DNA from: a virus
IMG/VR virus record: IMGVR_UViG_3300035701_001717
Span: 1-22,425 of that record
Length of the DNA: 22,425 nt
Strand: one strand, 5' to 3'
The translations under genes were made by a program, and so were the position numbers. Below are positions 3,408-7,880 of this stretch, piece after piece. The stretch's first letter is position 1. Each line of letters begins with the position of its first letter. The notes beneath the pieces are model-generated. The model saw only the letters and a list, made by a program, of their open reading frames with translations. It ran no database searches and was not told the origin of the DNA.

Positions 3408-4958
3408 ATGAGGGTGGAGATTGATAAGCGGGAGGCGAGTGAACGGAAACTTGAGGCGAAGGTGGAGTGGCCTTTGCATGGGGATCCGATCTCGCAGGCT
3501 TCGCTGTGGCTGCCGCTGATGATGTACCGCTGGCAGACGGAGGTTATCCGGGCTTGCATGACGGCTGGTGCCCGTGTGGCTTGCGTAACGCCAAATGAGA
3601 GCGGGAAGACGAGCATGGTGCTGCCGGCGCTGGGGCTGGCTTGGATGGCGGCTTTCCCGGGGTCGCAGGTGGTGAGCACGTCGGGCGTGGAACGGCAAAT
3701 CAAGAAGCAGTTGTGGCCGGTGCTGCGGAGCATTCTGGCGCCGTACCCGAGATGGCAGATTACGGAGGATCTGCATATCAAGGCGCCGAGTGTGCGGGGG
3801 ATTCCGGGGAGCGAGTGGGAGGCGTTTACGACGAAAGATCCAGCATATGCTGAGGGGTTTCATCCACGGTGGTATCTGGATGAGAACCGGAAGCCAGTGT
3901 ATGCGCCGCTGCTGATTATTATCGACGAGGCGAAGACGTTTAACGATCCGGAGTTGATGTTTGCGTTTCAGAAGCGGTGTGACCCGGATGTGCTGCTGAT
4001 GGTGAGTACGCCGGGGGAGGATGTGGGGGCGTTTTATGATGCGTTTCACAAGGACAAGAAGGCGTGGAAAACCTTTGAAGTTGGGTGGCGGGATTGTCCG
4101 CACTTGTGCCGCGGGGTGAAGCTTGAGAAGCGGTTGGAGACGATTCGGGAGCTGGGGGAGAATCATCCGCTGGTTCAAAGCTGGGTGTATGGGAAGTTCT
4201 ACCGGAGTGGGAGTCGGTTGCTGTTCGACAACATGGTTGATGTTGAGATGGCGATGAGTGGGACGCTGCCGGCGGTGAAGGGGGCTGGGCGGGGTGTGGC
4301 GTTGGATTTCTCGGGCGGTGGTGATGAGCAGGTGTTGGCGTGGCGGGATGGGAACCGGGTGATGCCGCTGGAGATTTTCCACGAGAAAGATGCGGTGAAG
4401 CTGGCGGATATGTGGGTGCGGAGGTTCAAGGAGTTGCGGGTGGAGGCGACGGATATCGTGGCGGACAATGGGGGACTGGGGAAAGTCTGCATCGACCTGT
4501 TGGAGAGCAAGGGGTTTCAAGGCATTCAGCGGTATATGGCGGCGGATGAGGCGCGGGCACCGGAGATGTATAAGTTTCGGGTGACGGAGGATCATTACGA
4601 GCTGCGGGAGCGGCTGATGATGCAGAGCGTTATTCTGCCGGATGATGACAAGTTGAAGGAGCAGATGCGGAAGCGGCGGTATCTGGTGAAGAATGAGGAG
4701 AACCAGATTCAGATTGAGCCGAAGGAGAAGATGCGGGACCGGGGCGAGGGGAGCCCGGACCGGCTTGATGCGGTGGTGATGCTGCTGACGCGGATGGAGA
4801 TGAAGGGGATGGCGGGGCAGCATGGGGCGACCGGGACAGAGCCGCGCAAGGATGCGCGATGCGGGAATTGGCAGGAGTGTATGCCGGGCTGGCAGGGGGG
4901 GGCGACGCAGGAGGCGGGCGGTGCGTATTGGAGCGGGGGCGGGGTGCTGGATGATTGA
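3408..4958 (+). CDS. terL: Terminase large subunit (ATPase and nuclease)
   Basis: 516 residues; ATG preceded by AGGAAGGG. The N-terminal ATPase drives DNA into the prohead and the C-terminal RNase H-like nuclease cuts concatemers. Visible motifs: Walker A TPNESGKTS at residues 61-69; Walker B LLIIIDEA at about 168-175 with D173 and E174; the coupling motif LLMVSTPG at about 196-203. The nuclease acidic residues are D300 in VALDFSGGGDE, D353 in VADNGG, and D451/D454 in SPDRLDAVVML. The length is normal for the family. Motif order and residues are complete, so the protein is expected to be active. The last 40 residues are low-complexity and Gly/Ala-rich. The next gene overlaps its end by eight bases. 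Confidence 0.95.
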   Translation: MRVEIDKREASERKLEAKVEWPLHGDPISQASLWLPLMMYRWQTEVIRACMTAGARVACVTPNESGKTSMVLPALGLAWMAAFPGSQVVSTSGVERQIKKQLWPVLRSILAPYPRWQITEDLHIKAPSVRGIPGSEWEAFTTKDPAYAEGFHPRWYLDENRKPVYAPLLIIIDEAKTFNDPELMFAFQKRCDPDVLLMVSTPGEDVGAFYDAFHKDKKAWKTFEVGWRDCPHLCRGVKLEKRLETIRELGENHPLVQSWVYGKFYRSGSRLLFDNMVDVEMAMSGTLPAVKGAGRGVALDFSGGGDEQVLAWRDGNRVMPLEIFHEKDAVKLADMWVRRFKELRVEATDIVADNGGLGKVCIDLLESKGFQGIQRYMAADEARAPEMYKFRVTEDHYELRERLMMQSVILPDDDKLKEQMRKRRYLVKNEENQIQIEPKEKMRDRGEGSPDRLDAVVMLLTRMEMKGMAGQHGATGTEPRKDARCGNWQECMPGWQGGATQEAGGAYWSGGGVLDD

Positions 4959-5157
4959 GGAATATCCATTCCCGGAGGTGTGGTGGCTGTGGGATGGGTG
5001 GCGGGTGTGGGTGGATCCGGCGGGGAAGGCGATGTGGTCGGTTACGGTGACGGAGGGGACGCGGCGTCGGTGGGAAAAGCGGGTGGGGGCGGAGACGAGT
5101 TTGGGGGCGATGAGCGAGGGATTGGATTGGGTTACGTCGCATAACAAATGCGCTTGA
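4951..5157 (+). CDS. Small Trp-rich protein overlapping the terminase end
   Basis: 68 residues starting at the ATG that overlaps the last eight bases of the terminase gene; GGGGT precedes it by five bases. Codons overwhelmingly end in G, as in the neighbours, which supports coding. The sequence MIEEYPFPEVWWLWDGWRVW is followed by a strand-rich middle (KAMWSVTVTEGTRRRW) and a short polar tail, suggesting a small beta-sheet protein. No family recognised. Its stop codon overlaps the -35 element of the promoter at 5154. Confidence 0.6.
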   Translation: MIEEYPFPEVWWLWDGWRVWVDPAGKAMWSVTVTEGTRRRWEKRVGAETSLGAMSEGLDWVTSHNKCA

Positions 5158-5182
5158 CGGCAGATGTTCTCTGTGGTATTGT
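5154..5182 (+). promoter_or_regulatory. Strong candidate sigma-70-type promoter with extended -10
   Basis: TTGACG (5154-5159), a 17-bp spacer and TATTGT (5177-5182), with TGG immediately before the -10. The -35 matches consensus at five of six positions and the spacing is ideal. Predicted start is near 5189. It lies at the boundary between the packaging genes and the head genes. Confidence 0.65.
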
Positions 5183-5188
5183 GCGGGC

Positions 5189-5259
5189 TGAAGATTGGGA
5201 AGTGCGAGCCACCAGACGGGGGCTTCATCGAAGCATGGGCGTCTGTGAAGCCCCTTTTT
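5189..5259 (+). ncRNA. Short leader or small RNA with alternative hairpins, ending in an intrinsic terminator
   Basis: From the predicted start to the T-run the transcript would be about 70 nt. Two folds compete. Fold 1 pairs CAGACG (5213-5218) with CGTCTG (5240-5245) and, inside it, GCTTC (5222-5226) with GAAGC (5230-5234). Fold 2 is the terminator pairing 5219-5227 with 5246-5254. Fold 1's inner stem uses the same bases as the terminator's 5' arm, so the inner stem and the terminator exclude each other. CAGACG/CGTCTG could alternatively coexist with the terminator as a pseudoknot. A further TGAAG at 5189-5193 can also pair with CTTCA. This is the layout of an attenuator or riboregulator, or of a free small RNA. 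I recognise no known class. Confidence 0.5.
5219..5259 (+). terminator. Intrinsic terminator
   Basis: A perfect 9-bp stem pairs GGGGCTTCA (5219-5227) with TGAAGCCCC (5246-5254), followed by TTTTT (5255-5259). The loop is 18 nt and contains an arm able to pair upstream. It lies 36 bases before the next start codon, so it must be read through or attenuated for head genes to be transcribed from the promoter at 5154. Confidence 0.75.
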
Positions 5260-5294
5260 GTTTGGGGGTTTGCGAAATGTCATAAGGAGGCGGT

Positions 5295-5810
5295 ATGAAG
5301 CGGTTTGGAATGCTGGTTGGGTTTGGGTTGGCGATTGTGTGTGTGACGTGCATGGGGGCGTACACGGGGTGGAATTACAACACGGCGGATCTGAATGGGT
5401 CGAGCAGCCTTCAGGAGCGGGTGGATGACCTGGATAATCGGCTGGATGCGGCCGGGATGACGAGCGCGACAACGGCGCTGACGCCGACATTTACCAGTCT
5501 GACCAATACCACGTTGAACCGTTGCAAGGAATCCATTGGCTCGAAGTATTTGATGGCCGGGCCGAGCGCCACGTATTCGTGGGGTATGGAAGCTGGAACG
5601 GTGACATTGGCATCTAATGGCGCTGGTCTTTTCACCAACACGTACACGTATGTCCGGACCTATGCGGCGGCGCCATTTCCTGTGGCGAGCTATGCGGCGG
5701 CGGTGGGCAATGTGACGAACGTGTTTACCACGGGACAGACCACGAATGTGCTGATTTCGGGCGGCGCGGCTGTCGCGGTGAATGTGATTGTGACCGGCCG
5801 CATTGAGTAA
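5295..5810 (+). CDS. Exported protein with signal peptide, function unknown
   Basis: 171 residues; a perfect AAGGAGG lies just upstream of the ATG. The N-terminus MKRFGMLVGFGLAIVCVTCM is basic then hydrophobic, a Sec signal peptide ending near residue 22. A short coiled coil follows (about 38-52, SLQERVDDLDNRLDAAG), then Thr/Ala/Val-rich beta-type sequence to a C-terminus (TNVLISGGAAVAVNVIVTG) that resembles the end strands of fibre or decoration proteins. It sits between terminase and portal genes, an odd place for an exported protein. It could modify the host envelope (superinfection exclusion) or be a virion protein whose hydrophobic N-terminus is not cleaved. Family not recognised. Confidence 0.7.
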   Translation: MKRFGMLVGFGLAIVCVTCMGAYTGWNYNTADLNGSSSLQERVDDLDNRLDAAGMTSATTALTPTFTSLTNTTLNRCKESIGSKYLMAGPSATYSWGMEAGTVTLASNGAGLFTNTYTYVRTYAAAPFPVASYAAAVGNVTNVFTTGQTTNVLISGGAAVAVNVIVTGRIE

Positions 5811-5891: not shown

Positions 5892-7880
5892 ATGGCTGAC
5901 AAGATCATACCGGAGAAGAAAGTTACCGCCGATGTGGATTTCTCCGGAAATCCGTGGATTGAGAAGATCAAGCAGGATGCTGGGAACCGCCAGAAGTGGG
6001 CGAGCCGGGACCGGCAAATCCAGAAGCGCAGGCTGACGGACCGGCCGGCGAAGAAGAACAAGCCGTATCCGGGGGCTCCGAATTTCGTTGTGCCTATCGT
6101 GGATGATGTGGTTCGGGAGAAGACGGACCAAGAAATCACGATGATGAGCAATGCTCGGTTCTTGGCGTATTTCATTCCGATGGGGCCGGGGCTTTCGGCG
6201 CCGATGCGGATGAAGGCGCAACTGGCGTTCGACACGTACCTCCGGCACGTTATTCAGGTGATGCCGAAGCTTGAGGAGGCGTTGGACTGCAAGAACGCGC
6301 GGGGATTCTCGATTGTGAAGGTGGTTCGGACGTTTGTGGAGCGGTGGGGTGGGGAGTTTCCGGATATCGACGTGCGGGATCCGGCGGATATGGTTGTGCC
6401 GGTGTATGCGCGGCGGGATCTGACGAAGGCGGACCGGATTTGCGACGTGTACCGCTACAGCGCGGAAGAGTTCGAGCGGATGGCGGAGGGGAACCCGACT
6501 TGGAAGAACGTGGAGAAGGTGTTGACCACGGCGGCGGCGCCGGACAAGCAGACGGCGGAGCTTCAAGGGGCGCTGGAGACGCTGAAAGATTTGATCGGGG
6601 TGCAGGTGGCCGGGGATGGGAGCAAGCAGGTGGTGCTTTGCGAGTTCTGGCACTACGCGGATGAGTGGACTTGCCGGAAGGCGGTGGAGTTGTACGGGGC
6701 GGAGATGGGTGGGCGGATTCTGAAGGGGCGGAAGTGCAAGATGCTGTTCTGCCTGGATGCGCCGGAAGACATTGTGGCCATTTCGCCGTGGCGGGAAAAA
6801 GACACGGTGACGATGGAGGATCAGATTGACCCTTCGACGGGTATGCCGGTGTTGGACCCGCTGACCATGAAGCCTGTGCAGGCGGCGCGGGACGTGATTG
6901 GGAAGGATCGGTCTTGGCCGTACATTCAGGCGCGGTATGAGAACCGGAGCCCGTTCTACTATGACTCCCGGGGCGTTGGGCAGTTGGTGATGGATGACCA
7001 GATTGCGGCGAGCGCGACGCGGAATTGCAAGCATATCCTGATGGATTACTACCAGTTGCCGCAATACAGGGGGACTGGGACGCGGAACAGCCCGCAGATT
7101 ACGCATGAGCCGGGGGGGTATCTGCCGGAGGGGGTGGAGCGGGTGGACCCGGCACAGATACCGATGAGTTTCGATTTTACGGTTGACCAGTTCCGGCGGG
7201 AGGCTGGGCGGCGGTGTGGGGCGGGTGGGCAGTATGAGTTTTCGGACCAGATGGCGGAGAGCCGGAAGGTGCAGAAGACGGCGGCGGAGGTGAGGCAGCA
7301 GAGTATTCGGGGGGACATGGTTTCGACGGCGAGTGTGGATCGGTTTGTTTCGCCGATTGGGGAAATCTTCATGCAGCTCTGGGAAGACTTGGGGCGGTTG
7401 CAGGTGCCGCTGCCGATGATTGCGAATCGGGCTTTCCTGGGGCAGATGGAGGTGAGCGTCTATGAGATTCCGGTGCTGATTATCCCGGTGGCGAACGCGA
7501 AGACGTTAAATCCGGACCTGCAATTCCAGCGGGACCGTGAGATTTGGGGGTTTCTGGCGACGATGGCGCAGATGGGGGTGGTGGTGGATCCGCAACGGGC
7601 GGCGATAGATATTCTTGGGAATGTGGACCCGGAGAAGATGGAGTGGGTGATTGACCCGAGTGAGCCGGGGCCGGCGTTGCCCGCGGGGGGTGCGGCTGGG
7701 CAGCCTGCCCAACAGCAGCCGGTGTATATGGCGCTTGGTGAGCTGAAGCAGACGGTTGCGCAGTTGGTTCAGGCTGTGCAGGCTACAGCGCAGTTGGCGC
7801 AGCATACGAGCGAGGAAATGGACAAGGGGGCGATGGCGGCGGAGACTACGGCGATGGCGCGGGGAGGGCGGCGGCGATGA
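5892..7880 (+). CDS. Portal protein
   Basis: 662 residues, in the size range of podovirus portals. The N-terminal third has the portal opening pattern: a basic segment (RQIQKRRLTDRPAKKNKPYP), then GAPNFVVPIVDDVV and helices. A Trp/Tyr-rich middle follows (QVVLCEFWHYADEW), then the long stem and clip helices with SRGVGQLVMDDQIAASATRN and RKVQKTAAEVRQQSIRGDMVS, a segment typical of portal C-terminal halves (K.A.EV......). The last 60 residues form a Gln/Ala-rich coiled coil like the barrel of P22-type portals. Portals form the dodecameric DNA channel at one head vertex and dock the terminase. The start lacks a strong ribosome binding site; the next gene overlaps the stop by four bases. Confidence 0.85.
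   Translation: MADKIIPEKKVTADVDFSGNPWIEKIKQDAGNRQKWASRDRQIQKRRLTDRPAKKNKPYPGAPNFVVPIVDDVVREKTDQEITMMSNARFLAYFIPMGPGLSAPMRMKAQLAFDTYLRHVIQVMPKLEEALDCKNARGFSIVKVVRTFVERWGGEFPDIDVRDPADMVVPVYARRDLTKADRICDVYRYSAEEFERMAEGNPTWKNVEKVLTTAAAPDKQTAELQGALETLKDLIGVQVAGDGSKQVVLCEFWHYADEWTCRKAVELYGAEMGGRILKGRKCKMLFCLDAPEDIVAISPWREKDTVTMEDQIDPSTGMPVLDPLTMKPVQAARDVIGKDRSWPYIQARYENRSPFYYDSRGVGQLVMDDQIAASATRNCKHILMDYYQLPQYRGTGTRNSPQITHEPGGYLPEGVERVDPAQIPMSFDFTVDQFRREAGRRCGAGGQYEFSDQMAESRKVQKTAAEVRQQSIRGDMVSTASVDRFVSPIGEIFMQLWEDLGRLQVPLPMIANRAFLGQMEVSVYEIPVLIIPVANAKTLNPDLQFQRDREIWGFLATMAQMGVVVDPQRAAIDILGNVDPEKMEWVIDPSEPGPALPAGGAAGQPAQQQPVYMALGELKQTVAQLVQAVQATAQLAQHTSEEMDKGAMAAETTAMARGGRRR

Follow-up and report, generated by a model that had tools for sequence, protein, structure and literature searches.

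In phage lambda, the late genes lie behind a promoter (pR'), a short leader and an intrinsic terminator (tR'), in that order, and are transcribed by read-through only. The Q proteins of lambda and phage 21 load at the promoter and carry RNA polymerase past the terminator (PMC7171158). At alpB of P. aeruginosa, the DNA-binding protein AlpA likewise loads at the promoter and bypasses tB, a terminator upstream of the first gene (PMC7969949), and at the structural cluster of the Caulobacter crescentus GTA, the promoter-loaded protein GafZ permits read-through of terGTA by transcripts from PgtaT (PMC11150451). Literature searches turned up no report of such a unit ahead of a portal gene. Here we describe a candidate from an uncharacterised tailed phage, which we suggest joins these terminator-gated promoter systems, by a mechanism that we infer from their example.

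The likeness to each system is partial. As in lambda and phage 21, a promoter, a short leader, an intrinsic terminator and late genes follow one another in the same order, but the unit described here sits between the terminase and the portal gene, whereas that of lambda lies before the terminase. Searches of nine records with the Q-family models PF06530 and PF03589, for which controls were positive, and with the Q82 model PF06323, whose control did not work, gave no match, most of these records, including ours, being fragments. Because these searches found no Q-family protein, we do not claim membership of the Q module. What recalls alpB-tB is a single intrinsic terminator directly ahead of an operon's first gene; alpB, however, is a host lysis operon, and the AlpA motif GGGACG-N5-GGTA, which sits between the -35 and -10 boxes of alpB, is absent from the corresponding spacer here, GCAGATGTTCTCTGTGG. 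With the Caulobacter GTA, the locus shares a phage-type structural cluster with a gating terminator close to its beginning, but terGTA consists of three 150-bp repeats past the first gene. GafZ has as its site a palindrome between the -35 and -10 boxes, whereas our promoter has no such palindrome; a search for an inverted repeat at this promoter found none.

The unit and its genomic setting

The stretch of DNA analysed (the window) comprises positions 1 to 22,425 of virus record IMGVR_UViG_3300035701_001717 (22,425 nt; 22.4 kb). Phage records searched with its DNA yielded no direct DNA match and no close relative. The terminase large subunit gene (3408-4958, + strand; PHROG 2, E 1.8e-19), the upstream anchor of the arrangement, encodes a protein about 30% identical to Akkermansia phage terminases, 46-52% identical to those of two related loci (L028 and L029) and 55% identical to that of a third (L032). 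On the same strand, the head operon begins with a gene for a 171-aa protein with a hydrophobic N-terminus (5295-5810), relatives of which occur in L008, L028, L029, L031 and L032. It is followed by the portal gene (5892-7880), the first recognised structural gene, whose product is 33-43% identical to the portals of related loci and matches an annotated portal weakly, and then by a scaffold-like gene (from 8244) and the major head protein gene (from 9666). The 171-aa protein, just upstream of the portal, has a signal-peptide-like N-terminus and shares with its relatives (starting at L028 4214, L029 8278, L031 7988, L032 6069 and L008 25) a motif around W-x(5)-D-L-x-G. Elsewhere in the window, a degenerate 22-bp repeat, CCGCCGATCTGGAGGCGGTTTG, occurs in about 9.5 copies at 2116-2321, in a stretch with no convincing gene. 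A search for tRNA and tmRNA genes found none.

Between the terminase gene and the promoter lies a short ORF of 67 aa (4954-5157, + strand) with no match in PHROG or Pfam, and its stop codon overlaps the -35 box. The predicted sigma-70-like promoter (5154-5182, + strand) consists of TTGACG (5154-5159), a 17-nt spacer and TATTGT (5177-5182), with a TG one base upstream of the -10 box (TGg), and is thus the near-consensus promoter with an extended -10 that had been recognised in the initial annotation. A simple consensus pattern would not single it out, as one such site was found in 5 kb against 1.3 expected; by a weight matrix, it is the top site on the + strand of the 22 kb and comes third when both strands are counted (P for the region, about 0.012).

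If transcription initiates 6-8 nt past the -10 box, as we assume, the leader RNA would start near 5189 and, judged from the positions of promoter and terminator, run for about 70 nt (5189-5259, + strand). It would end at an intrinsic terminator (5219-5259, + strand) with a perfect 9-bp stem, formed by a 5' arm GGGGCTTCA (5219-5227) and a 3' arm TGAAGCCCC (5246-5254), an 18-nt loop and a run of five T (TTTTT, 5255-5259). The window has no other stem of at least 7 bp followed by at least four T, whichever strand is read, and none of at least 9 bp with T5 turned up in 100 dinucleotide shuffles. The perfect terminator about 70 nt past the promoter, proposed from the first inspection of the DNA, is confirmed as a sequence feature. 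The strong ribosome binding site that the same inspection had placed fewer than 40 bases downstream is also present: a Shine-Dalgarno sequence, AAGGAGG (5284-5290, + strand), lies about 25 nt beyond the end of the T-run and serves the first gene past the terminator (ATG at 5295).

Recurrence of the arrangement in related loci

Relatives were recruited from one distant head-protein match and then by alignments of head protein, portal and terminase. The terminase as a lone query against IMG/VR returned nothing, and prophage copies in bacterial genomes, sought by head protein or portal, were not found. L007 duplicates L006 in this stretch and L008 starts just past the leader; ten other loci were scored, over the interval from the terminase (or a gene behind it) to the first head gene. 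The best promoter-like site had a P of 0.01-0.04 in seven of the ten (L002, L004, L006, L028, L030, L031 and L035), was weak in L005 and L032 (P 0.34 each) and did not stand out in L029 (P 0.87). Combined by Fisher's method, which treats the loci as independent, these values give P 5e-7 over eleven loci with the window and 3e-6 without it. Independence is a roughly fair assumption because the intervals are unalignable, apart from similarity near the -35 box between L028 and L035 and, marginally, L031. As the leaders of the eleven loci share no sequence outside this exception, it is position, not sequence, that has been kept.

Strong terminators, defined as hairpins of -18 kcal/mol or better with at least 8 pairs and TTTT, are also concentrated here. 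There are ten in the eleven loci (156 kb, both strands), and five of them fall within the 0.6% of the searched bases that belong to the leaders (P 2e-9, a guide rather than a blind test, because these loci had already been scanned when the rule was fixed). The five loci with a leader terminator are the window, L004, L029, L030 and L032, and the terminator sequences are unrelated. Six others have a promoter-like site but no leader terminator (L002, L005, L006, L028, L031 and L035), so the gate recurs in part of the group rather than throughout. The comparison of sequences shows promoter and terminator to be real and to recur in this position, a non-random placement. An attenuator before the head operon, one of the possibilities raised initially, gains support from this recurrence of a promoter and, in some relatives, a terminator between the terminase and the first head gene.

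The relatives also bear on how the downstream genes would be reached. In L029 and L032, whose terminases are the nearest to that of the window, the terminator is followed within tens of bases by a ribosome site and a gene, as it is in the window itself. L004 and L030 have a short ORF between promoter and terminator, and the end of the T-run is about 3 nt and about 22 nt, respectively, from the portal ATG. These gaps leave no room for a second promoter, so the portal gene would be reached by terminator read-through alone, whether transcription starts at the leader promoter or farther upstream.

Several further features of these loci deserve mention. A small protein of 50-57 aa is encoded right behind the promoter in L004 (6407-6580), L030 (3865-4017) and L031 (7802-7975), and before the terminator in the first two; the three proteins share the pattern G-x-L-x-V/I-x-K ... 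E-x-T, and the two that were searched belong to no known family. A further strong terminator (T5) lies in the head operon of L031 (11126-11155), about 90 bp ahead of the gene next upstream of that for the major head protein. The promoters of L005 (8958-8998) and L006 (6590-6640) lie so near the portal start codon that the mRNA would have little or no leader. Inverted repeats of 8 bp overlap the head-operon promoters of L002 (434-463) and L035 (2081-2119), both of which have no leader terminator; on a post hoc reading, they weakly suggest repressor sites, as if another form of control had replaced the terminator. Finally, L031 carries a perfect 16-bp palindrome, TGTTCCACGTGGAACA (7728-7743), which is separated by about 20 bp from the -35 box of its head-operon promoter downstream. 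We take it to resemble a chromosomal parS site, and a search of the 43-kb L031 record for a ParB_N protein found none.

Proposed regulated read-through and its alternatives

With moderate confidence, we read the unit as a control leader of the late structural operon, in which a promoter and a short leader are followed by a terminator that requires read-through, probably regulated. RNA polymerase would initiate at a host-type promoter immediately past the terminase genes and make a leader of about 70 nt, and the intrinsic terminator would halt it some 25 nt short of the first head gene's ribosome site, so that the head genes would be expressed only from polymerases that pass the terminator. Late in infection, an antitermination protein of the phage or host would most likely load at the promoter or close to it, on the model of Q at pR' of lambda. 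A gate of this kind would delay and restrain the synthesis of head proteins, even though the promoter itself would work from the outset. Like the 6S RNA of lambda, the short terminated RNA would be a by-product.

Read-through is implied because the only route from this promoter to the head genes crosses the terminator. That the terminator is functional, that its read-through is regulated and that a protein is responsible are steps that we infer; we favour regulated over leaky read-through because three characterised systems share both this anatomy and a promoter-loaded protein. More tentatively, and with rather less confidence, we suggest that an uncharacterised group of tailed phages, with a terminase closest to those of Akkermansia phages, may gate its head operon by terminator read-through that depends on an antitermination protein unrelated to Q, AlpA and GafZ, and that the terminator has repeatedly been acquired or exchanged in this one place.

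The terminator could instead be simply leaky, setting a fixed, lower level of head-gene transcription with no antitermination factor, a possibility that we consider somewhat unlikely. The T-run of the window is only five long before a G, the 18-nt loop is large, and no antiterminator protein was recognised; moreover, relatives that have no terminator keep a similar promoter position, as if the terminator merely tuned the level. On the other hand, the terminators of L004, L029 and L030 (T6 to T8, with stems of -20 to -21 kcal/mol) are not obviously weak, and a missing antiterminator gene says little, because the window is a fragment that holds mostly structural genes.

We find it improbable that the terminator is an insulator or a leftover, blocking stray transcription from the terminase side or from the host into a prophage, with the promoter-like site weak or unimportant. 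Terminators can insulate mobile elements, and Tn916 has one together with an antiterminator (PMC11658703); some relatives, such as L029, also have no convincing promoter. An insulator, however, would be expected upstream of the operon promoter and not downstream of it, and the promoter of the window is the best on its own strand, with promoter-like sites recurring in the same interval.

A third alternative places the control in the RNA itself. The initial annotation had described two mutually exclusive folds, and both hairpins do exist and overlap. The alternative one (5213-5245, + strand) pairs GCTTC (5222-5226) with GAAGC (5230-5234) inside CAGACG (5213-5218) and CGTCTG (5240-5245), overlaps the 5' arm of the terminator and is the minimum-energy fold for RNA ending at 5245-5251, while the 3' arm is still incomplete. 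Stabilised by a ligand, a ribosome or a protein, it could act as the antiterminator of a cis-acting switch or attenuator. Once the 3' arm is complete, however, the terminator is favoured by 10.7 kcal/mol. Before that, the fold of the leader has an energy of -14.5 kcal/mol, whereas shuffles of leader and loop with the terminator arms kept (300 per locus) come to -15.8 +/- 2.9; 203 of the 300 fold as stably, and 153 do so with at least equal pairing of the 5' arm. The competing hairpin is therefore present, yet no more stable than chance, and a competing fold is to be expected in this leader because the sequence is G+C-rich. Among the five loci tested, the 5' arm is sequestered somewhat more than in shuffles in L004 (matched by 3 of 300) and L032 (7 of 300), a weak signal, and not clearly so in L029 (20 of 300) or L030 (218 of 300). 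The covariation test suggested initially calls for an alignable homologue of the window leader, and none was found among the eleven loci. The initial annotation did not recognise the element as a known class, and a search of Rfam with the window and its relatives gave no match at the gathering threshold, matches below it being far under the curated cut-offs.

Leader RNAs could in principle cause read-through by themselves, as in HK022 put and Tn916 canT, which act on terminators farther downstream (PMC9378689, PMC11658703). The leader of about 70 nt described here has, the terminator aside, no fold better than its shuffles. On these energies and shuffles, we rejected a switch between competing folds; a ligand-sensing leader, as had been suggested, is unlikely, and we give a cis-acting RNA switch of any kind little credence.

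Least credible is a free-standing small RNA of the phage, about 70 nt long, whether a regulator or a terminase-adjacent packaging RNA: a compact unit bearing its own promoter and terminator would suit one, but this initial suggestion is unlikely and unsupported, as the leaders share no sequence (on which ground a packaging RNA was rejected), the terminated unit is absent from several relatives, Rfam holds no match, and the 16-mer GGGGCTTCATCGAAGC of the hairpin occurs in only 19 other IMG/VR stretches, by our estimate about the chance level for a collection of that size.

Implications for head-gene control

What a gated head operon would mean depends on how the terminator is passed. A merely leaky terminator would be ordinary. 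If read-through is regulated, the locus would extend terminator gating of head genes to a phage group far from the lambdoids, with the gate placed after the terminase, and would point to an antitermination protein that may be found through genes co-occurring with the leader terminator in complete relatives.
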